Origin: Geobacteraceae bacterium
GTDB lineage: Bacteria > Desulfobacterota > Desulfuromonadia > Geobacterales > Pseudopelobacteraceae
Reading direction: 5' to 3'
Assembly: GCA_025355965.1 (NCBI GenBank)
Contig: JANXYR010000034.1
Location: forward strand, 1 to 64,000
Length of the DNA: 64,000 bases
Shown in pieces: positions 51,832 to 64,000 of this stretch (within the stretch, counting starts at the first letter, position 1; each line of letters begins with the position of its first letter). A program made the translations under genes and the position numbers. The notes beneath the pieces were generated by a model. It ran no database searches. It saw nothing but the letters and a program-made list of their open reading frames with translations, and was not told the DNA's origin.

Positions 51832-52842
51832 ATGAATGGGAAATCTATCCTGATAACCGGTGGCACCGGATCCTTTGGTAAAAAGTTTGTTGAAATGACC
51901 CTCGCAAAGTATCCAGAGGTCGAACGTCTGGTTATTTATTCGCGGGATGAGCTGAAACAGTACGAGATGGATCAGACCTTTCCAACCAGCAAATTCCCGC
52001 AACTGCGCTATTTTATTGGTGACGTACGTGATAAAGACCGACTTATTCGCGCACTGTCAGGCATTGACACCATTGTCCACGCAGCAGCGCTAAAGCAGGT
52101 GCCTGCTGCTGAATACAACCCGTTTGAAGCGGTTAAGACTAATATTCTGGGAGCACAAAATGTTATCGATGCAGCGATAACTATGAAAGTTGATCGTGTT
52201 GTCGCCTTAAGTACGGATAAGGCCGCAGCACCAATCAATCTTTATGGCGCCACCAAACTCTGCTCTGACAAACTTTTCACCGCTGCAAATCAATTTGCAG
52301 GAAACAGGGATCTACGCTTTTCAGTTGTGCGCTACGGTAACGTCATGGGCAGCAGGGGAAGCGTCATCCCTTTTTTTCTTAAAGAGCGCCATAAAGGTGT
52401 CCTGCCGATCACCGATGAGCGAATGACCCGTTTCAACATAACCCTGGAAGCGGGCGTCAACCTAGTCTATTTCGCATTGCAAAACATGTGGGGGGGCGAG
52501 ATTTATGTGCCGAAAATACCCAGCTATCGCATTATGGACGTTGCCAAGGCGATCGCTCCTGAATGTGGAATCAACTTCGTGGGGGTGCGCCCCGGCGAAA
52601 AGATCCATGAAGAGATGATCACCGAGACCGACGCCCTGAATACCATCGAATTCAGAGACTATTTTGTAATCCTTCCCTCCTTTTCCCCATCCTGGAGCAT
52701 CAGCGAATTTACGGAGAAATTCAAAGGCAAATCATGCCAGGAAGGTTTTCGCTATAACAGCGGCAGCAACAGTGAATGGCTGACTGTAGAAGAGCTGCGG
52801 TCACTGATTTACAATCATGTTGATTCCGCTGTTACCGCCTAG
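51832..52842 (+). CDS. pseB: UDP-GlcNAc 4,6-dehydratase/5-epimerase (PseB type)
   Basis: The ATG at 51832 gives 336 residues and the normal start MNGKSILITGGTGSFGKKF; AAAGGAG lies upstream. Extended SDR enzyme: NAD motif GGTGSFG, AAALKQVPAAEYNPFEA, and catalytic residues in STDKAAAPINLYGATK. It converts UDP-GlcNAc to the 4-keto-6-deoxy-L-altro sugar, the first step of pseudaminic acid synthesis. First gene of the plus-strand cluster. Confidence 0.95.
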   Translation: MNGKSILITGGTGSFGKKFVEMTLAKYPEVERLVIYSRDELKQYEMDQTFPTSKFPQLRYFIGDVRDKDRLIRALSGIDTIVHAAALKQVPAAEYNPFEAVKTNILGAQNVIDAAITMKVDRVVALSTDKAAAPINLYGATKLCSDKLFTAANQFAGNRDLRFSVVRYGNVMGSRGSVIPFFLKERHKGVLPITDERMTRFNITLEAGVNLVYFALQNMWGGEIYVPKIPSYRIMDVAKAIAPECGINFVGVRPGEKIHEEMITETDALNTIEFRDYFVILPSFSPSWSISEFTEKFKGKSCQEGFRYNSGSNSEWLTVEELRSLIYNHVDSAVTA

Positions 52843-52844
52843 GC

Positions 52845-54029
52845 ATGGCCATGAATTCACCGATTCCGTATGGCAGGCAGAGCATATCAAAAGAGGATAT
52901 CAGCGCGGTAGTCAAGGTCCTCGAATCGGACTGGCTGACTCAGGGTCCTTGCATTGAACGCTTTGAGCAGACCGTTGCCGACTACTGCGGCGCCAAGTAT
53001 GCCGTAGCCGTCAACAGTGCCACATCCGCGCTTCATATTGCCTGTCTTGCAGCCGATCTGGGAGAGGGTGATACTCTCTGGACATCACCTAACACCTTTG
53101 TAGCGTCGGCAAACTGCGCCCTTTATTGCGGAGCCCAAATTGATTTTGTCGACATCGACCCCCGTACCTATAACCTGAGTGTGGAAGAACTTGAGCGCAA
53201 ACTGTTCCATGCCAGTAAAACAGGAAAGCTCCCCAAAACCGTAATCCCGGTACACTTTGCCGGGCAGTCGTGCGAAATGGAAAGAATCGCTGCACTCTCA
53301 AGAGAGTATGGCTTTACGATCATCGAAGATGCGTCACACGCTATCGGTGGACGGTACAGTGACACCAAGATCGGCAGTTGCGCCTTTTCCGCCATGACCG
53401 TCTTCAGCTTCCACCCGGTAAAAATAATTACCACGGGTGAAGGAGGGATGGTGCTGACCAATGACCCTTCCCTCTATAATAAGCTTGTGCGTCTCCGTTC
53501 CCACGGCATCACCAGAGATTCCTCTCTGATGGTGGGTGAGAACCACGGGCCTTGGTACTACCAGCAGATTGAACTGGGGTTCAACTATCGCATGACTGAT
53601 ATGCAGGCCGCCCTGGGTACCAGCCAGATTAGGAGGCTGGATGAATTTGTGGCCAAGCGGCATGAACTCGCAAAGCGTTATGATAGGCTACTGGCCGATC
53701 TGCCGCTTGTTGTGCCATGGCAGCATCCAGACGGGTACTCCGCATTCCATCTTTATCTAGTTCGGATAAACGGCCGTCAGACAAAAGCATCCCGTCGTCA
53801 GCTGTTTGATACATTACGTGCTGCGAACATCGGTGTAAACGTCCACTATATTCCCGTGCATACTCACCCGTATTACCAGAGCATAGGTTTCACAGATGGT
53901 ATGTTTCCAGAATCGGAGAGGTATTACTCCGAGGCTATAAGTTTGCCTATGTTTGCCGACTTGACAGACGTGCAGCAGGATCGGGTGATTTCGGTTATTT
54001 GCGAATTTTTCAAGGGCAAATTTTGCTAA
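52845..54029 (+). CDS. pseC: UDP-4-amino-4,6-dideoxy-AltNAc transaminase (PseC type)
   Basis: A 394-residue DegT/DnrJ-type PLP aminotransferase. Phosphate-binding and substrate region VNSATSALHIACLAADLGEGD; EDASHAIGG; PLP-binding Lys193 in FSFHPVKIITTGEGG. It aminates C4 of the PseB product. The start is 2 bp after pseB. Confidence 0.95.
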   Translation: MAMNSPIPYGRQSISKEDISAVVKVLESDWLTQGPCIERFEQTVADYCGAKYAVAVNSATSALHIACLAADLGEGDTLWTSPNTFVASANCALYCGAQIDFVDIDPRTYNLSVEELERKLFHASKTGKLPKTVIPVHFAGQSCEMERIAALSREYGFTIIEDASHAIGGRYSDTKIGSCAFSAMTVFSFHPVKIITTGEGGMVLTNDPSLYNKLVRLRSHGITRDSSLMVGENHGPWYYQQIELGFNYRMTDMQAALGTSQIRRLDEFVAKRHELAKRYDRLLADLPLVVPWQHPDGYSAFHLYLVRINGRQTKASRRQLFDTLRAANIGVNVHYIPVHTHPYYQSIGFTDGMFPESERYYSEAISLPMFADLTDVQQDRVISVICEFFKGKFC

Positions 54030-54039
54030 AGGAGTCAGC

Positions 54040-54663
54040 ATGAGCCAGTACAAGACAGAGCAGGAAGCATTTTGGGCAGGAGACTTCGGTAATGAGTATA
54101 TTGACAGGAATCAGGGAGCCGAGCTTGTTGCAGCCAATCTGTCTCTGTTTGCCAAAATTCTTGCCCGTACGCGCGGGATCAGTAACGTCCTGGAATTCGG
54201 TTCCAACAGGGGATTAAATCTGGTGGCTCTGAATCAACTACTGCCCGGAGCCGACCTGTCAGCAATCGAGATTAACGGCAAAGCCGTGGCTGAACTGGAA
54301 AAACTGGGGATCACCGACAAGGTGTATCATACGTCAATACTTGACTTCACACCGGATTACCAGCGTGACTTTGTCTTCATCAAGGGGGTCATGATTCACC
54401 TGAATCCGGATGTTCTGCCCCAAGCATATGATCTTATTTACAAATCAAGCAAAAGATACATTCTCGTGATGGAATACTACAATCCGACGCCTGTCGAAAT
54501 TCCCTATCGGGGCCATTCGGGTAAACTGTTCAAGAGGGACTTTGCCGGGGAAATGCTGGATCGCTTTCCGGATTTGCAGCTGCTTGATTACGGTTTTTGC
54601 TACGACCGGGACTATGTATTTCCAAACGGGGACGGAACCTGGTTCCTAATGGAAAAACGCTGA
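54040..54663 (+). CDS. pseudaminic acid biosynthesis-associated methylase
   Basis: A 207-residue class I methyltransferase beginning YKTEQEAFWAGDFGNEYIDRN, with SAM motif VLEFGSNRGLNLVAL and the family-specific MEYYNPTPVEIPYRGH. Members occur almost only in pseudaminic acid loci. The methyl acceptor is not established; it may be the sugar or its acyl group. AAAGGAG precedes the start. Confidence 0.88.
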   Translation: MSQYKTEQEAFWAGDFGNEYIDRNQGAELVAANLSLFAKILARTRGISNVLEFGSNRGLNLVALNQLLPGADLSAIEINGKAVAELEKLGITDKVYHTSILDFTPDYQRDFVFIKGVMIHLNPDVLPQAYDLIYKSSKRYILVMEYYNPTPVEIPYRGHSGKLFKRDFAGEMLDRFPDLQLLDYGFCYDRDYVFPNGDGTWFLMEKR

Positions 54664-54673
54664 GGGGACCGTG

Positions 54674-55393
54674 ATGAAACAGATGAAAAATAATGCTCCG
54701 GTTATGGCTATCACCGGCACCAGCAAGGGAATTGGCAATGGCATGGCCAGGCATTTTCTGTCGCTCGGCTACCATGTGGCCGGCTGTAGTCGCGGGGACT
54801 CAGATATCGATCAGGCGAACTATTTTCATTCGCGCGTCGAGATCGGTGATGAGAAGCAGGTGCAGAGCTGGGTCAGGGCGATAAAAAAGCGGTTCGGAAG
54901 AATAGATATTCTTGTCTGCAATGCCGCTCTTGCCCCGGCAAACCTCCTCATGATGATGACTCCAGGTTCGGTCCTCATGGATTTGCTGCAGACAAATCTC
55001 GCCGGCAGCTATTATGTCTGCCGGGAAGTTTCAAAAGTCATGGTGCTTCAGAAATCCGGCAGAATTATTACGACATCAACCATGGCAGTGGGGCTCCATG
55101 AAGAAGGTACTTCGGCTTACTCTGCAACAAAATCCGCCGTGGTTGAGATGACCAAGATAATGGCCAAAGAGCTGGCAACGTCAGGAATCACCTGCAATGT
55201 CATAGCTCCGTCAATGTTGATGACCGAAGCGGTTCACGCCCTTGGCGAAGATATAATTCAACGCGCATTGAGCAAACTTACCATCAAGCGGACGATTACC
55301 ATTGAAGAGGTCTGCAACGTCGTATCGTTCTTTGCGGCGGAGGAAAGCAGCTGCGTCACAGGCCAGGTCATCCACTTGGGACTGGTATGCTGA
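54674..55393 (+). CDS. SDR-family oxidoreductase (FabG-like)
   Basis: The ATG at 54674 has GAGGGG six bases upstream. A 239-residue classical SDR: TGTSKGIGNGMARHFL (cofactor), LVCNAALAPANLL, catalytic SAYSATKSAVVEM, ending VTGQVIHLGLVC. FabG-type proteins reduce 3-ketoacyl carriers; given the KAS III-type gene 0.7 kb downstream this is the likely job. It overlaps the next gene by 7 bases. Confidence 0.9.
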   Translation: MKQMKNNAPVMAITGTSKGIGNGMARHFLSLGYHVAGCSRGDSDIDQANYFHSRVEIGDEKQVQSWVRAIKKRFGRIDILVCNAALAPANLLMMMTPGSVLMDLLQTNLAGSYYVCREVSKVMVLQKSGRIITTSTMAVGLHEEGTSAYSATKSAVVEMTKIMAKELATSGITCNVIAPSMLMTEAVHALGEDIIQRALSKLTIKRTITIEEVCNVVSFFAAEESSCVTGQVIHLGLVC

Positions 55394-56091
55394 CGGACCG
55401 TCCGCTTCTTTCCGAGTATGAATATGGTGGATGCCGTATCGCCTGCCTTGTCACCGGAGAAGAGTGGCAGCAGAACACATACATTGTCACCGACACTTCA
55501 TCTCTAAACACCATAGTTATTGATCCGGGCGGGAGCGTAGAGCGGATAATCCAGCGGATTACGGACATCAACGTGGTCCTGACTCATATTCTGCTGACAC
55601 ATCCCCACCATGATCACGTCGGAGCGGCGGCGAAACTGTCCGAACAGTACAATATGGCCTGCGAACTCCATAAGCAGGATGTCCGGCTGCTGGTGCACGC
55701 TCCGATGTATGCATGGACATTTGCGAAGAGGAAGATTCCGGCTGTATCGCATTACCGGGCATTTGAGGAATTGGTCATTAAAGAGAAGCCTGCCTTTCGG
55801 GCTCTCCACACCCCAGGGCACACAAAAGGGAGCGTCTGCTACATCTTCGACGGCTTCCTGTTTACCGGGGACACGCTCCTGTGCAAGCATGTCGGGCGTA
55901 CCGATCTGCCGGGAGGCAATTCCACTGACCTCTCCACGTCGGTGGATATGATGCTGGGCGTATTGCCGGATGACGCCGTTATCTTTCCCGGCCACGGCAG
56001 GCCGTGGAGTGTTGGAGAAGCCAGAGAGTGGTGGCGGCAGTTTCGCGGGAAGCCGCCGGCTCACATGTCGTTCACCGACCCAATTGACTGA
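55387..56091 (+). CDS. metallo-beta-lactamase-fold hydrolase
   Basis: A 234-residue MBL-fold protein with the metal motif THPHHDHVGAAAKL, then HTPGHTKGSVCY, FTGDTLL and FPGHGRPWS. Glyoxalase-II-like hydrolases share this layout. Inside an acyl-assembly cluster a thioesterase acting on an acyl-carrier intermediate is plausible, but the substrate is inferred. Its start lies within the SDR gene (7-base overlap). Confidence 0.88.
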   Translation: MLTDRPLLSEYEYGGCRIACLVTGEEWQQNTYIVTDTSSLNTIVIDPGGSVERIIQRITDINVVLTHILLTHPHHDHVGAAAKLSEQYNMACELHKQDVRLLVHAPMYAWTFAKRKIPAVSHYRAFEELVIKEKPAFRALHTPGHTKGSVCYIFDGFLFTGDTLLCKHVGRTDLPGGNSTDLSTSVDMMLGVLPDDAVIFPGHGRPWSVGEAREWWRQFRGKPPAHMSFTDPID

Positions 56092-56104
56092 AAGCAAGGG
56101 AGTA

Positions 56105-57109
56105 ATGGATAGCATGACTGATACAGCAGGTGTCGGAATTCTGGGAACCGGCAGATACATTCCAGAGAAGACGCTCAGCAACGAACTGATTGAGAAGCAG
56201 TGCGGCCTGGAGCCTGGGTCGATCCTCGCCAAAACCGGCATCAAGAGACGGCATATCGCCGAAGATCATGAAACAGCCTCCTCCATGAGTGTTGAATGCG
56301 GGCGGCAGGCTCTGAAAGCGGCCAATATCGAACCGGAGCAGATCGGGCTGATAATCTGCTGCACGTTCACAGGTGACTACGTCTATCCGGCTCTGGCATG
56401 CAAAGTCCAGGAACTGATCGGGGCAAAGAACGCCGGTTCTTTTGATTTGATGGCAAACTGCACAAGTTTCCAGGTCGGCCTGACCGTCGCCTCGGACCGG
56501 ATGAAGTGTGATCCGACCATCGGCTATGCGCTGGTAATCGGAGTTGCCCTGCAATCGCGCTATATCGACTGGAGCGATCCCGAGTCGGCAATCTACTTCA
56601 GCGATGGCGCCGGCGCTGCGGTTCTCGGACCGGTTCCTGCGGGCTATGGAGTGCTCGCCAGCGATCTCTTCACCAACAGCAGGGTTTTTGAGGCGGTAAG
56701 GCTGCGCGGAGGCGGCTCCAGCCACCCGATGCGGCCCGAAAATATCAGCGCGGGACTGCAATATTATGAAATGAACGGCATGGAGGTATGGAAGCAGGTA
56801 ATGCAGTTCCAGCCCAAAGCGATAAAACGTGTGTTGGCAAAAATCGACAAGACGACCGATGATGTTGACTTCTTCATTTTCCACCAGGCGAACCAGAACC
56901 TGATCCATTTCCTCATGGGGAGAATGAAACAGCCACTTGAGAAGACCTTGATTAATGTCGATGAAATCGGCAACACGGCTGATGCCTCCCTTGCCGTGGC
57001 GCTGCACGACGCGGTAGTTGCACAAAAAATCAAACGGGACGACCTTGTCGTAATCACCGGAGTGGGTGCAGGCTTCACCTTTGGAGCTGCCGCCATCCGC
57101 TGGTATTAA
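56105..57109 (+). CDS. 3-oxoacyl-ACP synthase III (KAS III/FabH-like)
   Basis: The likely start is ATG at 56105 (or 56114, which is better spaced from AAGGGAG); the longer open frame overlaps the MBL gene. The 334-residue product has GVGILGTGRYIPEKTLSNE and the full catalytic triad Cys119 (ANCTSFQ), His260 (FHQANQN) and Asn290 (IGNTADASLA). C-terminal GVGAGFTFGAAAIRWY is typical. It should condense an acyl-CoA or acyl-ACP with malonyl-ACP. Confidence 0.93.
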   Translation: MDSMTDTAGVGILGTGRYIPEKTLSNELIEKQCGLEPGSILAKTGIKRRHIAEDHETASSMSVECGRQALKAANIEPEQIGLIICCTFTGDYVYPALACKVQELIGAKNAGSFDLMANCTSFQVGLTVASDRMKCDPTIGYALVIGVALQSRYIDWSDPESAIYFSDGAGAAVLGPVPAGYGVLASDLFTNSRVFEAVRLRGGGSSHPMRPENISAGLQYYEMNGMEVWKQVMQFQPKAIKRVLAKIDKTTDDVDFFIFHQANQNLIHFLMGRMKQPLEKTLINVDEIGNTADASLAVALHDAVVAQKIKRDDLVVITGVGAGFTFGAAAIRWY

Positions 57110-57117
57110 GGTAATTT

Positions 57118-58059
57118 ATGATTCCGCCGAACGCGCCTGAGTTTACTAAAATTGTCGACGCAATAATTGCCAGGTCACCTTTCCAGAGAAAGAAACTTGA
57201 GCAGCATTTATCTGGGATGGACGCGGACTACTTTGCCCGGGCTGAGGAGTTCGCCATTGATTACGGCAATTATCTCGCCAGCCAGGATATCCCTTTCGAC
57301 TATGCCATTCAGGCGTACCTCGATATGTGCAAAAGCATGCTGAAATGCCAGATTGAATTCATGAAAACCGGGTCCTACAGCACAACCGACCATAATCAGG
57401 CTTTTATCGATATATATTCAAACCCCGACCGCATGAAATCATATATGATCGCCCTGGCATTGTCCCAATTTCTCTGGTCCTCGCACTACAGAATTTATCT
57501 GGATTTCGAACGGTCCCTCTGCAATAATGCCGCGCGTACCGGCTCTTATCTCGAGATCGGACCCGGTCATGGTTTGTATCTTCGCAAAGCCATCCGGCAC
57601 CTTGATCCTGATGCTTCTATTCAAGCGGTGGATATAAGCCCTGTTTCAATCAGGATCACAAAATCGATCATTGATCACTTCTGCCCGGATACATCGAATG
57701 TCACCTTCTGGACCGGAGACATTCTTGATTACAAAGCCCCCTCGCGATACGACTTCATTACGATGGGAGAGGTTATCGAGCATGTGAATGCTCCCCGGAA
57801 GTTGCTTACCAGACTAATGACGCTTCTTTCCGACTCAGGCAGAGCCTTTATCACGACATCAATCAACTCACCAGCAGTTGATCATGTGTACCACTTCAAG
57901 AGTGTCGAGGAGGTAAGGGAGATGTTCCGCGATTCTGGGCTCGTGATTCTCCATGAACAGATTTTGCCGGTAGAGGATTTGCCTATGGAAGAAATTGTGT
58001 CTCAACGAATAACTATCAACTACTCCGCGGAAGTTAAAAGGGCTGACAGCCATGAGTAA
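57118..58059 (+). CDS. class I SAM-dependent methyltransferase
   Basis: A 313-residue protein. An N-terminal helical part (about 1-135) of unknown type precedes the methyltransferase domain with SYLEIGPGHGLYLRKAI (SAM), AVDISPVSIRI and MGEVIEHVNAPRKLL. The C-terminal end resembles small-molecule O- or C-methyltransferases. Cluster context suggests it methylates the acyl group being built. It overlaps the next gene by 8 bases. Confidence 0.85.
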   Translation: MIPPNAPEFTKIVDAIIARSPFQRKKLEQHLSGMDADYFARAEEFAIDYGNYLASQDIPFDYAIQAYLDMCKSMLKCQIEFMKTGSYSTTDHNQAFIDIYSNPDRMKSYMIALALSQFLWSSHYRIYLDFERSLCNNAARTGSYLEIGPGHGLYLRKAIRHLDPDASIQAVDISPVSIRITKSIIDHFCPDTSNVTFWTGDILDYKAPSRYDFITMGEVIEHVNAPRKLLTRLMTLLSDSGRAFITTSINSPAVDHVYHFKSVEEVREMFRDSGLVILHEQILPVEDLPMEEIVSQRITINYSAEVKRADSHE

Positions 58060-59236
58060 GTATGATGCGATCAAAATCGGGGATACGGCGAAACTCACCC
58101 ACGTTATCACGCAACAGGATGTAGATCATTTTGTCAACCTTACCGGCGATGACAACAAATTACACATAGATGCAGGGTATGCCGAGACCACTGTTTTCAA
58201 AAAACCTGTTGCCCACGGAATGCTTGGAGCATCATTCATCTCAACGGTGATTGGCACCAAACTCCCCGGAGACGGGGCGCTCTGGTTCGCGCAGAATCTT
58301 GAGTTTCTGTTGCCGGTCAGAGTGGGCGACACCATAACTGTCGTTGCCGAAGTCCTGAAAAAATATGATCGGGACAGCATTATCGAGCTGAAAACCGATA
58401 TTTTCAACCAGCACCGGCAAACCGTCACAACCGGAGTAGCAAAGGTGAAGATAGTGGAGCCGTTGAGTCCGGCTGCCCCCTCTTCACCTCAGGAATGCAG
58501 GAAAATCGCACTCGTCATCGGTGCAACCGGAGGCATCGGACAGGCCATCTGCCGACAGCTGGCAGAAGATGGTTTTGATATCGCGATTCATTACCACAGC
58601 AATAAACAGGCTGCGGCAAACATCCAGGATTTCCTGTCAACCCTGGGTATTTCCACCACGATATACTGCGCAGACATTGTTGACGCCCGCCAGACCTCGG
58701 ACATGGTTGAACAGGTTGTACGTCGGTTGGGAGGACTTACCCTGCTGGTCAACTGCGCCACCGCGCGGATTCCTGTCATAAAGTTTTCTTCCCTTGAATG
58801 GGCTGACATCCAGGCGCATCTTGATACAAACGTCAAAGGCACGCTCAATCTCGCCAAGGCTGTAGTACCGGTCTTTGAAGCCCAGAGCCACGGCAAAATC
58901 ATAACGTTTACCACGCAGGCCATCGAAACCCCCGCGGCCGGCTGGCTTCATTACATAACCGCCAAAAACGCCCTGCAGGGATTTTCACGGGCGCTGGCGG
59001 TCGAACTCGCCCCAAAAGGGATAACGGTCAATATGGTTTCGCCCGGCATGACCGAAACGGAACTGATTGCTGACATTCCGGAGAAAACCAGATTGATGGT
59101 GGCAGCCAAAGCACCGTTGCGAAGACTTGCCAGGCCCGAAGATATAGCGGGTGCCGTCAGTTTTCTGGCATCGTCCAAAGCGGACTACATTACCGGAGAA
59201 ACAATTCGCATCAATGGAGGACAGGTGATGCTATGA
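58052..59236 (+). CDS. MaoC-like dehydratase / SDR reductase fusion
   Basis: A 394-residue two-domain protein. Residues 1-140 are a MaoC/R-hydratase hot-dog domain (HFVNLTGDDNKLHIDAGYAE, KPVAHGMLGASFISTVI), with the Asp and His of R-specific enoyl hydratases in place. Residues about 152-394 are a complete FabG-like SDR: VIGATGGIGQAICRQL, LLVNCATA, Tyr301 and Lys305 (HYITAKNA), ITGETIRINGGQVML. Together they would interconvert 3-keto, 3-hydroxy and 2-enoyl thioesters. Its stop overlaps the FkbH start (ATGA). Confidence 0.93.
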   Translation: MSKYDAIKIGDTAKLTHVITQQDVDHFVNLTGDDNKLHIDAGYAETTVFKKPVAHGMLGASFISTVIGTKLPGDGALWFAQNLEFLLPVRVGDTITVVAEVLKKYDRDSIIELKTDIFNQHRQTVTTGVAKVKIVEPLSPAAPSSPQECRKIALVIGATGGIGQAICRQLAEDGFDIAIHYHSNKQAAANIQDFLSTLGISTTIYCADIVDARQTSDMVEQVVRRLGGLTLLVNCATARIPVIKFSSLEWADIQAHLDTNVKGTLNLAKAVVPVFEAQSHGKIITFTTQAIETPAAGWLHYITAKNALQGFSRALAVELAPKGITVNMVSPGMTETELIADIPEKTRLMVAAKAPLRRLARPEDIAGAVSFLASSKADYITGETIRINGGQVML

Positions 59237-61008
59237 CTCTTGTCAGAGGCGGAATATCTGGTAATGAGACAGGCCTGTCCGACATGCTTGCCCTGATCAA
59301 TTCATCCGACGACTCCCAGGGAATCCCGGTTGCGTTCAATTTCCTGCGCAACTTCACTACGGAGGGGATTGAACCGTACCTTCACTACCACTGTCTCTTG
59401 AGCGCCCTCAAGCCAAAGATCACTTTTGGCAATTACGACATGGTTCACCAGGAGGTACTGGACAGGAGTTCGCACCTGTACAGTTCATCTCCGGACATAA
59501 TCGTCGCTGCTCTCTATCTGGACACATACCTTCCTGACGGCTGGCGCGCCTCCTGGAGTGCCGATGATGTCATGAACAGCCTGGCCGGACTCTTTGCCGA
59601 CATTGCCGGCAATACGGATGCAATTATTGTAGTGAACACCTTTGTGCCCCCCTTTTACGCCGACTTCGGCATCAGCAGCGTCAAGGACTTTTCCAGCCAC
59701 CATAACGAAGTGTTGCGGCTTAACCAATTGATACGGGCATACGTCTTCTCCACCCCTGCACGATTTGTGCTGGCTGACTGGGAACGGTTCGTCCGCCTGC
59801 TGGGCGAAAACGAGAGCATGGACTATCGATTCTGGTACATGTCCAGGTCTCCGTTCAAAAAAGCCTTTCTAGAGTTGTATGCACTTGAGCTGGTAAAGGT
59901 CGCCAGGGCCCTGAAGGGCAAATCAAAAAAATGCCTGATTCTTGATTGTGACAATACCCTATGGGGTGGGGTAATCGGAGAGGATGGCCTGAATGGCATA
60001 AAGCTTGATCCGCATTCCTACCCCGGCAATGTTTTCTACGAATTCCAGAAGAGCATAATCCGGCTCCACGAGCGGGGAGTTCTGATCACCATCTGCAGCA
60101 AGAATAACGAACAGGATGTCTGGGACGTCCTCGACGGCCATCAAAGCTGCATTCTCAAACGTGAGCATTTATCCGCATGGCGGGTTAACTGGAGTGACAA
60201 GGTATCAAATATTCGGGACCTGGCCACAGAGCTGAACCTGGGCATTGACAGTTTCGTGTTCGTCGATGATAACCCGGTTGAGTGCGGGCTCATCCGAGAC
60301 ATGCTCCCGGAGGTGACGGTCCTGCAGGTACCGGAGAAGCTTTACACCTACCCGCCCCTGCTGAACCGGGACGGATTGTTCGACACTCTTACCTTCAGCT
60401 CCGAAGACCGGCAGCGGTCACAGTTGTACCGCGACGAAGCACATCGTAAGCATGAACAGGCAAAATATGAAACCATGGATCAGTATCTGGCATCCCTGGC
60501 TCTCAGGGTTACCGTCCATCCCGCCACGGATAACGAGATCTCGAGGGTAGCGCAACTTACTCAGAAGACAAACCAATTCAACCTGACGACCCGCCGCTAC
60601 ACCGAGGCAAAAATCTCATCATTCTGCAATGACCCGGACTGGGCAGTCATCAGCCTTTCCGTGCAGGACAAGTTTGGAGACTCGGGACTGACCGGAGTCA
60701 TGATAGCCCACAAAGAAGGTGATACGGGTGTCATCGACTCACTTCTCCTGAGCTGCCGTATTTTGGGGCGCAGCATAGAAAAAGTGTTTGTTCTCGAGGC
60801 GCTGTCCATCATGAGCCGTCTGTGGCCGGTGAAAACCTGGCAGGCCGAGTTTGCAGCGACGCCCAAGAACCAGCAGGTAGCTGAATTCTGGCCATCCATC
60901 GGGTTCCGGCAGAGCAGCCTGCTGGACGGCCATACCTTCTACACACTGCCGTTTGCAGTACCGGAACTGGAGCCGATATCATACATAGCTATTGAGGAGC
61001 AACAATGA
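59233..61008 (+). CDS. FkbH-type HAD-superfamily protein
   Basis: A 591-residue protein. An N-terminal alpha/beta domain (1-220, SGNH-like) is followed by the HAD domain with D238-C239-D240-N-T in LILDCDNTLWGGVIGEDG, SKNNEQDV and FVDDNPVECGLIR, and a C-terminal acetyltransferase-like region (about 420-570, GDSGLTGVMIAHKE). FkbH proteins take 1,3-bisphosphoglycerate, remove a phosphate and load glycerate onto a carrier protein; the conserved Cys in DCDNT belongs to the active site. The carrier gene follows with a 4-base overlap. Confidence 0.92.
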   Translation: MTLVRGGISGNETGLSDMLALINSSDDSQGIPVAFNFLRNFTTEGIEPYLHYHCLLSALKPKITFGNYDMVHQEVLDRSSHLYSSSPDIIVAALYLDTYLPDGWRASWSADDVMNSLAGLFADIAGNTDAIIVVNTFVPPFYADFGISSVKDFSSHHNEVLRLNQLIRAYVFSTPARFVLADWERFVRLLGENESMDYRFWYMSRSPFKKAFLELYALELVKVARALKGKSKKCLILDCDNTLWGGVIGEDGLNGIKLDPHSYPGNVFYEFQKSIIRLHERGVLITICSKNNEQDVWDVLDGHQSCILKREHLSAWRVNWSDKVSNIRDLATELNLGIDSFVFVDDNPVECGLIRDMLPEVTVLQVPEKLYTYPPLLNRDGLFDTLTFSSEDRQRSQLYRDEAHRKHEQAKYETMDQYLASLALRVTVHPATDNEISRVAQLTQKTNQFNLTTRRYTEAKISSFCNDPDWAVISLSVQDKFGDSGLTGVMIAHKEGDTGVIDSLLLSCRILGRSIEKVFVLEALSIMSRLWPVKTWQAEFAATPKNQQVAEFWPSIGFRQSSLLDGHTFYTLPFAVPELEPISYIAIEEQQ

Positions 61009-61256
61009 TGCAACATCAAGAACAGAAGTTGAAAGAGGTACTTGCACGGATTTTCAACGTTCAACCGGAAATGATCACCGACGACGCCTCTCCCGACACC
61101 ATTGAAAACTGGGATTCGCTTCGGCATATGAATCTTGTTCTCGCGCTTGAGGAGGAGTTCGGCGTAGAATTCACGGATGATCAGGTTGTTGAGATACTCA
61201 GCTACAAACTTATCAAGATAGTGTTTAAGGAGCATGGCGTAGAATTCGTTCAGTAA
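61005..61256 (+). CDS. acyl carrier protein
   Basis: An 83-residue carrier protein with phosphopantetheine-attachment Ser38 in ENWDSLRHMNLVLALEEEFG, the usual DSL context and a helix rich in acidic residues after it. It is the natural carrier for the FkbH protein (4-base overlap) and for the KAS III, SDR and MaoC activities of the cluster. Confidence 0.93.
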   Translation: MMQHQEQKLKEVLARIFNVQPEMITDDASPDTIENWDSLRHMNLVLALEEEFGVEFTDDQVVEILSYKLIKIVFKEHGVEFVQ

Positions 61257-61313
61257 CAAGGCTGTCAGTTTATCCAGACATATAATTTTGAGTTCGCTCA
61301 GGATAGGTTTCAA

Positions 61314-62684
61314 ATGCAATCAATTCATACGATCTTTGAACGCATGCGCAGCAATACATCCGGGACCGCTCTTTTCTGGAACGATCGGGAGATCAGCTAC
61401 TCCGATTTTATCGTCATGATCGATGCCTGGAGTGAGCGACTTGTAGAGCACCATATTGCAAAAGGCACCGTGTGCGGATTCATAGCAGAATACTCTCCCA
61501 ACGTGTGCGCACTGATTTTTGCGCTTATGCAGGCAAAGGCGATCCTCGTTCCATTTACCCCCGCAATTGAGCACGAATTGCCGGAATTCATCGAGATTGC
61601 CGGCGTCACGCATCTGTTCAGATTTGACACAGATGACGACTGGTCATTTGAAAAATGCGGGAGTCCTGTTCAGAATCCGCTTGTTGAGACCTTTATTGAG
61701 CGAGATGTTCCCGGCCTGATAGTATTTACATCCGGCTCCACCGGCAAGCCCAAGGGGATACTCCAGGATTGTGAACGGGTCATGCGCAAGTTCGTCGAAA
61801 AGCGCCCCGGCTGGCGTACCGTTCTGTTCCTCATGCTGGATCACTTCGGCGGATTCAACACCCTGCTTTCAACCTTTGCGTACGGAGGGACGGCAGTATG
61901 CCTACCGGATCGCAGCTCAGAAAGTGTCTGCAGGGTTATTCAGCAATCCCGCGCGACGCTTTTGCCAACCACTCCGACATTTATTAACCTGCTGATCGCC
62001 TCCCGCTGTTACATGGAGTACGATCTGTCATCGGTGAAGCTTATAACCTATGGAACCGAAGTGATGCCCCCCTCCACGCTATCGAAGGTCAGGGAAATTT
62101 TTCCGAATGCCCAGATCAAACAGACGTACGGCTTGTCGGAACTGGGCGTGTTACGCTCCAAATCGGAAAGCGACGATTCGGTCTGGGTGAAAATTGGCGG
62201 TGATGGTTTCGAAATAAAAATCATCGACGACATCCTCTGGGTTCGCTCCGAGGCAAACATGGTCGGATACCTGAATGCGCCCAACCCTTTTGATGAAGAT
62301 GGATGGATGTGTACGGGGGACCATGTTGAACTGCGCGGAGAGTACATGCGCATCCTGGGGCGAAAATCGGAAATGATAAACGTCGGCGGCCAGAAAGTGT
62401 TTCCGGCAGAGGTTGAAAACGTGCTCCTTGAGGCGGACAATGTCCGGGAGGTCACCGTTATCGGTGTGCCACACCCAGTTATGGGAAATGTCGTCAAAGC
62501 AAAAATCTCACTCAATACGCCTGAAGATCAGTTTCTACTGACTGAGCGATTGAGAAAACACTGTCTTGAAAGAATGGCCCGCTATAAAGTCCCGATGAAA
62601 TATGAAGTTGTTGACTCGGAAAATCTGCATAGTAACCGATATAAAAAAATAAGAGTCGGGAATAATCCTGTGGGACATGAGTAA
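61314..62684 (+). CDS. adenylate-forming acyl ligase (ANL superfamily)
   Basis: A 456-residue AMP-forming ligase, somewhat shorter than typical acyl-CoA synthetases. P-loop LIVFTSGSTGKPKGILQD; QTYGLSELG; GDHVELRGEYMRILGRKSEMINVGGQKVFPAEVE (A8-type hinge, positions about 340-375); C-terminal Lys in SNRYKKIRVG. It should activate an acid as acyl-AMP and load it on CoA or on one of the neighbouring carriers. It overlaps pseH by 8 bases. Confidence 0.92.
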   Translation: MQSIHTIFERMRSNTSGTALFWNDREISYSDFIVMIDAWSERLVEHHIAKGTVCGFIAEYSPNVCALIFALMQAKAILVPFTPAIEHELPEFIEIAGVTHLFRFDTDDDWSFEKCGSPVQNPLVETFIERDVPGLIVFTSGSTGKPKGILQDCERVMRKFVEKRPGWRTVLFLMLDHFGGFNTLLSTFAYGGTAVCLPDRSSESVCRVIQQSRATLLPTTPTFINLLIASRCYMEYDLSSVKLITYGTEVMPPSTLSKVREIFPNAQIKQTYGLSELGVLRSKSESDDSVWVKIGGDGFEIKIIDDILWVRSEANMVGYLNAPNPFDEDGWMCTGDHVELRGEYMRILGRKSEMINVGGQKVFPAEVENVLLEADNVREVTVIGVPHPVMGNVVKAKISLNTPEDQFLLTERLRKHCLERMARYKVPMKYEVVDSENLHSNRYKKIRVGNNPVGHE

Positions 62685-63240
62685 AGAAGGAGAATTTAAC
62701 CCCTTGATTACTTTTAATAAAATGACAGTAGATGATCAGGAAATGGTCATGCAATGGCGGGCGCTCCCCTCTGTAACCCAGTATATGGTAACAGACATTG
62801 AACCGGACCTTGACAAACAGATCGCCTGGTTTCACAAAATTTCGAATGATCCGAGCTGCCTGTACCTGATCGTCCAGTACAACAAAATCCCGATTGGAGT
62901 GATCAATCTGGCCAGCATTGACACCGTAAACCGCAGATGCACCGCAGGATATTATATCGGCAATCTGGAGTACCGGTCTGTTGGTGCCATAGTTCCCGCC
63001 TATATTTATAATTACGTTTTTAATGATTTGAAGCTTAATAAAATCTATGGTGAGGTTCTGGAGGAAAACACCGGAGTAATGCATTTGCATAAGCTATTCG
63101 GGTATGAGACTGTAGGCGTAATGCGCCAGCATGTTTTCAAAAACAACCAGTTCCATAATGTGGTAATAATGGAACTCCGTGCGGATGAGTGGGCAAAACA
63201 AAAAAAATACCAAAGTTACATACCTGAAATAGAACTATAA
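62677..63240 (+). CDS. pseH: PseH-type GNAT N-acyltransferase
   Basis: A 187-residue GNAT protein starting FNKMTVDDQEMVMQWRALPSVTQYM, with PIGVINLASIDTVNRRC, CoA-loop region YIGNLEYRSVGAIVPAYIYNYVF and KIYGEVLEENTGVMHLHKLFGYETVG. PseH acetylates the 4-amino group of the pseudaminic acid precursor using acetyl-CoA. In this cluster it may instead use the acyl group built on the carrier proteins. Confidence 0.9.
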   Translation: MSKEGEFNPLITFNKMTVDDQEMVMQWRALPSVTQYMVTDIEPDLDKQIAWFHKISNDPSCLYLIVQYNKIPIGVINLASIDTVNRRCTAGYYIGNLEYRSVGAIVPAYIYNYVFNDLKLNKIYGEVLEENTGVMHLHKLFGYETVGVMRQHVFKNNQFHNVVIMELRADEWAKQKKYQSYIPEIEL

Positions 63241-63251
63241 GGGAGCCTTTT

Positions 63252-63548
63252 ATGAACACTCAAGCAGCACTTCAGTTGATGCAGGAGACTTTTGAGAGCA
63301 TGCAGCGTTCAGGCATGGTACCTGATACCATCACTTTTAATTCGGACACTGTGATCCTGGGTGTTGGTTCCGTTCTGGACTCCCTAGGTTTTGTCACCTT
63401 CATTTCCGATCTTGAAGAACGGCTCTGCACGAAACTGGATGACGAGGTGTATCTGGTACACCATGAGATTGAAGCCTTTAATGCCAACAGCTCGTTTTTA
63501 TCCGCAGGCACGATTGCACGTTTTATCGAGAGCATTACCCCGAATTGA
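63252..63548 (+). CDS. second, divergent acyl-carrier-like protein
   Basis: A 98-residue protein. The central ILGVGSVLDSLGFVTFISDLEERL has Asp43-Ser44-Leu45, the carrier-protein attachment motif, followed by the acidic recognition helix; the C-terminal helix (STIARFI-like, AGTIARFIESI) also fits. The N-terminal 30 residues and the inserted loop are unlike ordinary ACPs. It lies between pseH and pseG, so it may present the acyl donor to the sugar enzymes. Confidence 0.75.
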   Translation: MNTQAALQLMQETFESMQRSGMVPDTITFNSDTVILGVGSVLDSLGFVTFISDLEERLCTKLDDEVYLVHHEIEAFNANSSFLSAGTIARFIESITPN

Positions 63549-63555
63549 GAACAGG

Positions 63556-64000
63556 ATGAGTACGGTAAAAAGGAATAAGACCTTTCTGATTCGAGTCGAT
63601 GCGTCGGCTCATATCGGCGCGGGCCACCTGATGCGGATGCTCTCTCTTGGCCAACTCCTGGTGGAAGCTGGACATGATGTTCATGTTGCAACCATCCCGC
63701 ATAACCCTTCGACCATTGAATATATACTGAAGAGTGCCGGGTTCAGCCTTCATTATCTGGACAAGGAAACTCCCTGGAATTCCCGGCATGATTCCGGCTC
63801 GTTGCTTGGAATTGCGTCGGAGGTTCGGCCTTCATGGATAATCATTGACGGCTATCATTTTGACGAAGATTACGAATACCAAATCAAGGCAGCAGGGTAC
63901 AAGCTGCTGAGGATTGATGACATTCCGGCTCCCCGTACCTATTATGCCGATTTGATACTCAACCAGAATTTCGGAGCCGATGCCTCCGCGTATGCAACAG
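63556..64000 (+). CDS. pseG: PseG-type UDP-sugar hydrolase (5' part, runs off right edge)
   Basis: From the ATG at 63556 there are 148 open codons to the window end. The product begins FLIRVDASAHIGAGHLMRML, the GT-B-like start of PseG/SpsG, and continues with SWIIIDGYHFDEDYEYQIK, LLRIDDIPAPRTYYADLILN and QNFGADASAYAT. PseG removes UDP from the 2,4-diamido sugar before condensation with PEP by PseI. Downstream genes (pseI, pseF) may lie outside the window. Confidence 0.9.
   Translation, partial: MSTVKRNKTFLIRVDASAHIGAGHLMRMLSLGQLLVEAGHDVHVATIPHNPSTIEYILKSAGFSLHYLDKETPWNSRHDSGSLLGIASEVRPSWIIIDGYHFDEDYEYQIKAAGYKLLRIDDIPAPRTYYADLILNQNFGADASAYAT

Follow-up and report, generated by a model that had tools for sequence, protein, structure and literature searches.

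The window analysed here comprises the first 64,000 bases of a contig of 80,382 bases (JANXYR010000034.1) from the 3.35 Mb genome of a Geobacteraceae bacterium (GCA_025355965.1), and from position 51832 it carries a pseudaminic acid (Pse) operon with a cassette of acyl-assembly genes inside it. We consider it probable that this operon makes CMP-pseudaminic acid N-acylated with a custom short hydroxy-acid, not with acetate, and that a matched PseH and PseG came along with the cassette, because these two enzymes change together with it when the operon is compared with those of the same genus. A sequence-only reading of this DNA had described pse genes flanking genes for making and loading an acyl chain; all the genes it named are present, in that order and on the + strand, with profile matches for all but the second carrier, and the single operon it pictured agrees with the spacing of neighbouring genes, which stays within -8 to +57 nt all the way from pseB through PseG. 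Its central proposal, a dedicated acyl module feeding the Pse operon, is well supported, chiefly because PseH and PseG are exchanged alongside the module relative to same-genus operons.

The cut-off for the Pse biosynthesis-associated methylase was passed by six of the 58 genomes searched, the host included, and the other five loci are L044-L048. The same-genus locus L044 reads pseC, methylase, PseG, PseH, PseI, PseF, a Gfo/Idh enzyme, a further gene, an unassigned gene and a DegT aminotransferase, with the acyl genes absent. They are also absent from the stretch between pseB and PseF of L046; L045 is too short to show presence or absence of the acyl block, and the fusion of a MaoC dehydratase with a short-chain dehydrogenase/reductase (MaoC:SDR) that belongs to the cassette was found in none of 36 same-genus genomes at E ≤ 1e-40. 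Compared with L044, the window proteins share 71% identity in pseC, 83% in the methylase, 79% in PseI, 69% in PseF, 64% in both the Gfo/Idh enzyme and the unassigned gene and 81% in DegT, but just 28% in PseG and just 30% in PseH. Against L046 the corresponding values are 64% (pseB), 72% (pseC), 83% (methylase) and 71% (both PseI and PseF), with PseG at 30% and PseH at 25%. The PseH proteins of L044, L046 and L048 are 46-64% identical among themselves and the window PseH is 25-31% identical to them; the PseG proteins of L044, L046, L047, L048, L050, L052 and L054 (L050-L054 being the best class matches from the PseG search) share 42-56% mutually and 27-31% with the window PseG. A match to the window PseG was given by 29 of the 277 class genomes, and in those listed the identity does not exceed 32%. 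The host genome yielded no second PseG at E ≤ 1e-20, and the L044 PseH found no second match there at E ≤ 0.001. The simplest account of these figures is that the segment after the methylase and up to PseI was replaced by the cassette, PseH, a second carrier protein (ACP2) and PseG, so that the methylase would be the final gene ahead of the foreign segment and pseG its right edge. The block seems to have arrived with its own PseH and PseG, displacing the native pair. Since PseH would install the acyl group and PseG would meet it next, a joint change of the two fits an altered acyl group.

A PseG tree was set aside, as only one of its nine inner branches was starred and the window and L040 were joined by long branches; the L051 row had been translated in the wrong reading frame, and only the identity table was used. 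Locus L053 (G233), from the same order, also has a divergent PseG, 24-32% identical to the other rows. In L046, a PIG-L deacetylase and a formyltransferase (1613-2987, - strand) follow PseH in the same slot, and the pair also occurs in L040, which hints at N-formyl Pse in these two loci.

The operon opens with pseB, an inverting UDP-GlcNAc 4,6-dehydratase (51832..52842; TIGR03589, 522 bits, cut-off 408; 71% identity to same-genus L045), followed by the aminotransferase gene pseC (52845..54029; TIGR03588, 565 bits, cut-off 424; 71-72% to L044, L045 and L046) and the Pse methylase (54040..54663; TIGR03587, 282 bits, cut-off 112; 83% to the same three loci). Beyond the cassette lie the PseH-type GNAT N-acyltransferase (62677..63240; TIGR03585, 122 bits, cut-off 93) and the 5' part of pseG (63556..64000, the gene ending at contig position 64620; TIGR03590, 191 bits, cut-off 154), both differing from the genus type. 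The + strand run continues past the window to contig position 69847, with a gap of 68 nt ahead of PseI, and holds in order PseI (495 bits in the NCBIfam profile search), PseF (326 bits), a Gfo/Idh enzyme, an unassigned gene and a DegT aminotransferase. PseB, PseC, PseH, PseG, PseI and PseF thus all lie above the curated cut-offs, and the predicted product of the operon is a Pse derivative at the cell surface. As for its acceptor, PF01973, the MptE-like family that we take to be that of the Maf flagellin transferases, has no match anywhere in the host genome; a Maf-type flagellin glycosyltransferase was dropped as a clue to the acceptor, and a protein fusing TPR, a GT41 glycosyltransferase and a TylF-like methyltransferase (L006 5337-8120, contig C34:75336-78119, - strand) was for this reason considered as a candidate O-glycosyltransferase. 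Next to it, an ALTTAQ-repeat protein with a long repeat array (L006 8367-10382, - strand), which extends past the contig end, is a possible surface acceptor.

The cassette starts with SDR1, a FabG-like ketoreductase (54671..55393; PF13561, 148 bits; YSATK at residue 150), and a metallo-beta-lactamase (MBL)-fold hydrolase (55387..56091; PF00753, 84 bits; HPHHDH at residue 72), for which a thioesterase-like role is inferred. The FabH-like ketoacyl synthase (KAS III; 56102..57109; PF08541, 94 bits) has FabH-type enzymes as its nearest solved structures, and its Cys-His-Asn triad (C120, H261 and N291) is unchanged in all ten aligned homologues. It is followed by an S-adenosylmethionine-dependent methyltransferase with a helical N-terminal domain (57118..58059; PF13489, 53 bits; AlphaFold2 pLDDT 92.6); the solved folds closest to it belong to small-molecule methyltransferases acting on O, C and N, and the fold cannot discriminate O- from C- or N-methylation. 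The MaoC:SDR fusion, a dehydratase plus ketoreductase (58052..59236; PF01575 and PF13561), keeps D33 and H38 of its MaoC domain and Y301 and K305 of its SDR domain in 15 of 15 aligned sequences. FkbH, a predicted glyceryl-ACP synthase with an N-terminal domain (59233..61008; TIGR01686, 280 bits), has retained its DxDxT and CSKNN motifs, with D238, D240 and C288 unchanged in 14 of 14 aligned; residues 66-390 are covered by a match to PDB 3slr, and its profile has this single match in the host genome and none in 14 control genomes. Overlapping the FkbH gene by 4 nt is the standalone acyl carrier protein ACP1 (61005..61256; PF00550, 28.6 bits; WDSL motif, Ser38), and then comes the AMP-forming acyl ligase (61314..62684; PF00501, 121 bits; TSGSTGKPK at 139), whose S140-G141-S142-G144, K147 and K444-K445 are unchanged in 9/9 aligned. 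Bit scores were compared with NCBIfam cut-offs, and the KAS III, MBL, SDR, MaoC plus SDR, AMP-binding and PP-binding matches lie above those of Pfam. The expected catalytic or attachment residues are present in the MBL enzyme, SDR1, the ligase and both carriers; the cassette genes show no sign of decay, with frames open and the examined active-site residues intact.

The PseH gene sits between the ligase and ACP2 (63252..63548), the second carrier that the sequence-only reading had called. This small protein matches no Pfam or NCBIfam family and sequence searches return no ACP, yet the call is supported by its AlphaFold model (pLDDT 92.7), which has an ACP-like fold with Ser44 at the start of helix 44-62, and by the Asp-Ser motif (D43-S44), unchanged in 9/9 aligned homologues. 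The best structural alignments of the model are acyl carrier proteins, with Z up to 9.1, a size that can occur by chance among helical bundles; ACP chains occupy almost all the top rows, one row being a designed scaffold. Foldseek gave nothing for the model at E ≤ 0.001, and the hits of a PDB sequence search, all of them pentatricopeptide-repeat proteins matched along a short consensus-like stretch, we regard as spurious. ACP2 is therefore a predicted carrier, with a modelled carrier fold and a serine opening helix 2.

The sequence itself shows the genes and their intact catalytic residues, the exchange of the segment and the recurrence of the cassette; the chemical steps that we propose below all go beyond it. 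FkbH is predicted to draw on 1,3-bisphosphoglycerate to charge ACP1 with glyceryl, a reaction known for FkbH and standalone ACPs in polyketide pathways (PMC7489565). The MaoC domain may then take the beta-hydroxyl off the glyceryl unit as water to give pyruvyl, and the SDR domain may reduce this to a lactyl-type unit. We place the fusion at the three-carbon stage because it stays with FkbH even where KAS III is lacking; the lactyl branch is nonetheless the most weakly inferred step. The loading module of bryostatin BryA, with FkbH, ACP, dehydratase and ketoreductase, is said to make lactyl from glyceryl, the dehydration and reduction having reportedly been proposed there; BryA is a fused polyketide synthase module, and the likeness to the cassette is one of analogy only. 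The methyltransferase could cap a hydroxyl, or a carbon, and KAS III with SDR1 could add and then reduce a single two-carbon unit. Given that the ligase and ACP2 co-occur, the ligase probably loads ACP2, and the MBL hydrolase might edit or release chains. PseH would finally move the finished acyl group to UDP-4-amino-4,6-dideoxy-beta-L-AltNAc, at what becomes the N7 position, and PseG, PseI and PseF would complete the pathway.

The cassette recurs in distant bacteria. The MaoC:SDR fusion is rare in the class (two of 277 genomes, host included) and was found only in the host among the 395 genomes of a phylum sample, and a scan of named genomes gave 18 loci. In a Bacteroidia sample, eight of 395 genomes matched the fusion query: G666 (L021), G772, G750 and G899 have true fusions with FkbH adjoining or one gene off; G759, outside the loci counted below, has a distant fusion (34%) with FkbH adjoining; and G741, G904 and G848 have MaoC and SDR in separate frames, with no FkbH seen nearby (G904 and G848 being viewed as loci of ~4 kb). 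After L010 (the same record as L009), L026 (29%, SDR part only, no cassette) and L027 (51 residues at a contig end, with an adjoining pseC at 56%) were dropped, we counted 20 distinct loci: the window, L009, L011-L025, L039, L040 and L041. The named ones come from Geobacter, Bacteroidetes, Saprospiraceae, Cyclobacteriaceae, Chryseobacterium, Bacteroidia, Ignavibacteriae, Chlorobiota, Nitrospirae, Nitrospinota, Pseudodesulfovibrio, Rhodospirillales, Magnetovibrio, Roseateles and Lysobacteraceae; the genome bearing the Geobacter sp. copy (G044, L009/L010) belongs to the host's order. Plasmid carriage of the fusion gene was considered and dropped, since 72,556 records searched at E ≤ 1e-40 gave no match.

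Wherever the locus leaves room (19 of 19), FkbH lies no more than two genes downstream of the fusion; it is adjacent in 17, with two genes between in L013 and one in L040, and L024 terminates inside the fusion. ACP1 follows FkbH directly in 16 of 17 loci with room, the exception again being L040, with one gene between. KAS III and the MBL enzyme occur in half of the 20 loci (in addition, the edge of L016 cuts through a partial KAS III), and the ligase and ACP2 occur in the same nine (window, L009, L015, L017, L021, L023, L024, L025 and L039). Five loci flanked by 6 kb or more on each side (L018, L019, L020, L040 and L041) contain the fusion, FkbH and ACP1, and KAS III, MBL and ligase were undetected in them; because these loci keep both the fusion and FkbH in this way, we assign the fusion to the FkbH unit. 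The cassette is thus built of a core of fusion, FkbH, ACP1 and often the methyltransferase, and an extension of ACP2, SDR1, MBL, KAS III and ligase. Pairwise identities of eight genes over eight loci correlate for all 28 gene pairs (r 0.55-0.96).

Linkage of the acyl genes to pse genes elsewhere, the lack of which would have counted against the sequence-only reading, is borne out in part. Pse genes adjoin the cassette in four of the 20 loci, namely the window, L022 (pseB 51%, plus flaF and DUF4910 genes), L023/L028 (pseB 65%, pseC 50% and PseI 61%, converging on the cassette, with an FdtA-type gene also there) and L040 (PseI 62%, PseG 28% and pseC 42%), and PseI is above its cut-off in only four of the 18 genomes behind L010-L027. 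Others stand beside different sugar genes: L009 next to genes for a glucose-1-phosphate cytidylyltransferase, a CDP-glucose dehydratase and RfbH, i.e., CDP-3,6-dideoxyhexose genes, and L015 and L025 (by Pfam) and L018 and L021 (by similarity to L015) next to FdtA-type genes. From these neighbourhoods it follows that the cassette is not Pse-specific. An acyltransferase-like gene adjoins eight of the nine extended cassettes. It is above the Pfam cut-off in the window (PseH), L017 (PglD-like), L024 (Antibiotic_NAT) and L039 (GNAT), shows weaker similarity in L015, L021 and L025 (23-26% to PseH), and is represented in L009 by a candidate from a family of ~290 residues whose GNAT match falls below threshold; L023 is the one locus in which no such gene was identified. 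The L024 protein (2052-2828), which is aminoglycoside 3-N-acetyltransferase-like (PF02522, 98 bits), lies between ligase and ACP2.

Members of the ~290-residue family (L009 16389-17270, L014 4836-5705, L018 13108-13949, L019 13121-13987 and L041 13129-14031) directly follow the cassette or the core; the four full-length ones share 28-34% identity and that of L018 is split into two frames. No Pfam family scored above cut-off in L009, L014, L019, L041 or the first L018 frame, and this is perhaps a new acyltransferase family. Proteins with DUF4910, DUF2172 and HTH_47 domains (the CA_C2195 family) are encoded in L022 (7847-9106, - strand) and L028 (11958-13238, - strand), and both loci hold pse genes and the cassette. 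Campylobacter jejuni cj1295 is presumably of the same DUF4910/DUF2172 family; in the host genome the DUF4910 match is on another contig (C86:5147-6163, - strand), in a polysaccharide-like locus unlinked to the pse operon.

More hesitantly than for the operon itself, we suggest that the cassette could be a trans-acting mini polyketide system spread by horizontal exchange, in which FkbH would prime one carrier and the ligase serve another, making short lactyl- or glyceryl-derived chains for several unrelated surface sugars in several phyla. On entering a pse operon it would bring a matched PseH and PseG, with acyl identity, PseH and PseG exchanged as a unit.

Several observations speak against a custom N-acyl group in the window or against our account of its origin. 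The profile score of PseH is ordinary (122 bits, compared with 131 in L044, 140 in L046 and 128 in L048), and read by eye against 4xpk the enzyme retains a plausible coenzyme A loop; for these two reasons PseH may transfer acetyl. Loss of this loop had been considered as a sign of ACP use, and the same reading gave no clear loss. No difference separates L045 from L046 in pseB, pseC or the methylase, so the two count as one comparison. Same-genus L047 (G026) shares with the window only 55% identity in the methylase and 43% in PseF, and its genes run pseB, pseC, PseF, methylase, PseG, which suggests that pse genes have been shuffled more widely across the genus. The low identity of PseG and PseH could also reflect fast divergence while adapting to a new substrate, although this would give a similar functional conclusion. 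GC content was not decisive as a sign of transfer and does not set the block apart (cassette genes 44.8-55.9%; pseB, pseC and methylase 48.2-51.2%; PseH lowest, at 41.7%). All the named cassette loci come from metagenome-assembled genomes, the co-variation of the genes partly mirrors the species tree, and loci lacking KAS III could rely on a housekeeping FabH. The pse genes of L022 and L023/L028 run on the opposite strand to the cassette, and the sugar genes of L009 are not expected to provide an amino group for an amide. Published C. jejuni strains point both ways: 11168 has dimethylglyceryl-Pse, and 12661 and 12664 are without it; in 12664 the fkbH-domain gene cj1302 is a pseudogene, which we count in favour of a role of FkbH in the acyl group, yet 12661 is missing cj1301 and cj1306, not cj1302 (PMC7099621).

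Some of these points would suit a different destination, in which the acyl group goes elsewhere on the glycan, either O-linked to Pse or attached to a subsequent sugar that the Gfo/Idh and DegT enzymes would help to make, and PseH merely acetylates. The ordinary PseH score agrees with this, O-acylation should be possible in L009, and the Gfo/Idh and DegT genes continue the same run. Nonetheless, we consider this destination unlikely: cassette-free L044 also has the Gfo/Idh, unassigned and DegT genes at 64-81% identity, so that they probably predate the cassette, and the enzymes that differ along with it are PseH and PseG, not Gfo/Idh or DegT. It is rather improbable that the operon makes ordinary Pse5Ac7Ac and that the acyl genes belong to a lipid or polyketide cluster that has hitch-hiked into it and plays no part in the sugar. 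The function of the cluster does rest on sequence, and the rarity of the fusion in the class would fit a stray arrival, but the open frames, the intact active-site residues examined, the overlaps between adjoining genes, the placement of PseH between ligase and ACP2 and the recurrence of the cassette beside sugar-nucleotide genes of differing kinds all argue otherwise. We regard as very improbable a tetronate or methoxymalonate chemistry, in which FkbH, ACP and the FabH-like enzyme would couple glyceryl-ACP with a ketoacyl chain and close a ring on release, or glyceryl would be oxidised to give a (methoxy)malonyl extender. In its favour, the components that tetronate operons combine, namely FkbH, a FabH-like enzyme and an ACP that stands alone, are all present in the window, and methoxymalonate operons combine FkbH and ACP with an O-methyltransferase and two dehydrogenases (PMC7489565). 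Against it, the five well-flanked loci hold fusion, FkbH and ACP1 with no KAS III detected, KAS III of the window is nearest to FabH-type structures with its triad intact, and the cassette proteins match no acyl-CoA dehydrogenase family in profile searches, the type to which one methoxymalonate dehydrogenase belongs. No Agg4/Agg5-type tetronate genes were recognised.

A custom N-acyl group on Pse would matter because variation in the N-acyl groups of nonulosonic acids and other surface sugars is relevant to serotype, phage binding and immune recognition, and the genes behind the less common acyl groups are mostly without assignment. The cassette resembles an exchangeable decoration kit, recurring beside different sugars in distant bacteria. 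Together with the cassette-free operon of the same genus and the predicted exchanged enzymes, it makes the carrier used by PseH and the 1,3-bisphosphoglycerate origin of the acyl group testable. Calculated residue masses are 316.127 Da for Pse5Ac7Ac and, for other acyl groups, 346.138 (lactyl), 360.153 (O-methyl-lactyl), 404.180 (hydroxy-methoxypentanoyl) and 406.159 Da (trihydroxypentanoyl). Mass alone may mislead here, since dimethylglyceryl-Pse and dihydroxypentanoyl-Pse share one formula, both at 390.164 Da.

Parts of this arrangement have been met before. Treponema denticola FlaB reportedly carries a Pse-type sugar with a 2-methoxy-4,5,6-trihydroxyhexanoyl group on N7; glyceryl extended by a single malonyl would not give such a C6 chain. 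The C. jejuni locus presumably also contains FabH2, ACP and ligase genes. As in the window, the Pse locus of C. jejuni includes an fkbH-domain gene, and the Pse there bears a methylated acyl group derived from glyceric acid; unlike here, the parts of the paper available tie cj1295, cited as required for the acyl group, and not cj1302 to it, and describe no MaoC:SDR fusion (PMC7099621). In Flavobacterium psychrophilum, wfpC-G encode KAS, ACP, ketoreductase and acyltransferase functions predicted to provide 3,5-dihydroxyhexanoyl on Qui2NAc4N, with R-group genes that vary between strains (PMC6519341). Dedicated KAS, ACP and ketoreductase genes within a sugar locus, and a sugar N-acyltransferase predicted to attach the hydroxyacyl group, are common to both systems; the sugar differs, the transferase is PglD-type, and the available text mentions no FkbH and names no MaoC or AMP ligase. 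Aeromonas group II strains have ACP, 3-oxoacyl-ACP reductase and AMP-dependent synthetase genes between pse genes, and a Pse derivative of 376 Da (PMC7874193); by our calculation, 376.148 Da would suit a C4H6O3 acyl group on Pse. Similar genes are found in enterobacterial flagellin glycosylation islands (PMC4875605), and both kinds of island list LuxE/LuxC in place of KAS III, FkbH and MaoC:SDR in the text available. Neighbourhoods of CA_C2195 (DUF4910) contain a nonulosonate synthase, a methyltransferase, an N-acetyltransferase, an ACP and a protein described as N-acetyltransferase plus HAD phosphatase, a make-up that resembles FkbH; the part of the table available lists no KAS III, MaoC:SDR or AMP ligase, and the proposal made there is based on context (PMC4000134). 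Shewanella sfmABCDE includes a 3-oxoacyl-ACP reductase and a methyltransferase (PMC3765264), and 3- and 4-hydroxybutyryl are among the known N-acyl groups of marine bacterial sugars, with no gene link seen in the portion available (PMC3210612). The suggestion of the sequence-only reading that the pathway may be undescribed may therefore hold for the combination, as a search of the partly available open-licence literature, supplements excluded, for FkbH, ACP or ketoacyl genes in a pseudaminic, nonulosonic or O-antigen context found no description of the cassette among the hits listed (25 of 140 for O-antigen); it does not hold for the parts, since the literature already describes ACP, FabG and AMP-ligase genes from Pse flagellar islands, an fkbH gene at the Pse locus of C. 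jejuni and a set of KAS, ACP and ketoreductase genes predicted to supply the N-acyl group of a sugar. The cassette is thus a variant on these precedents, namely the Campylobacter fkbH gene, the Flavobacterium R-group genes and the Aeromonas islands.

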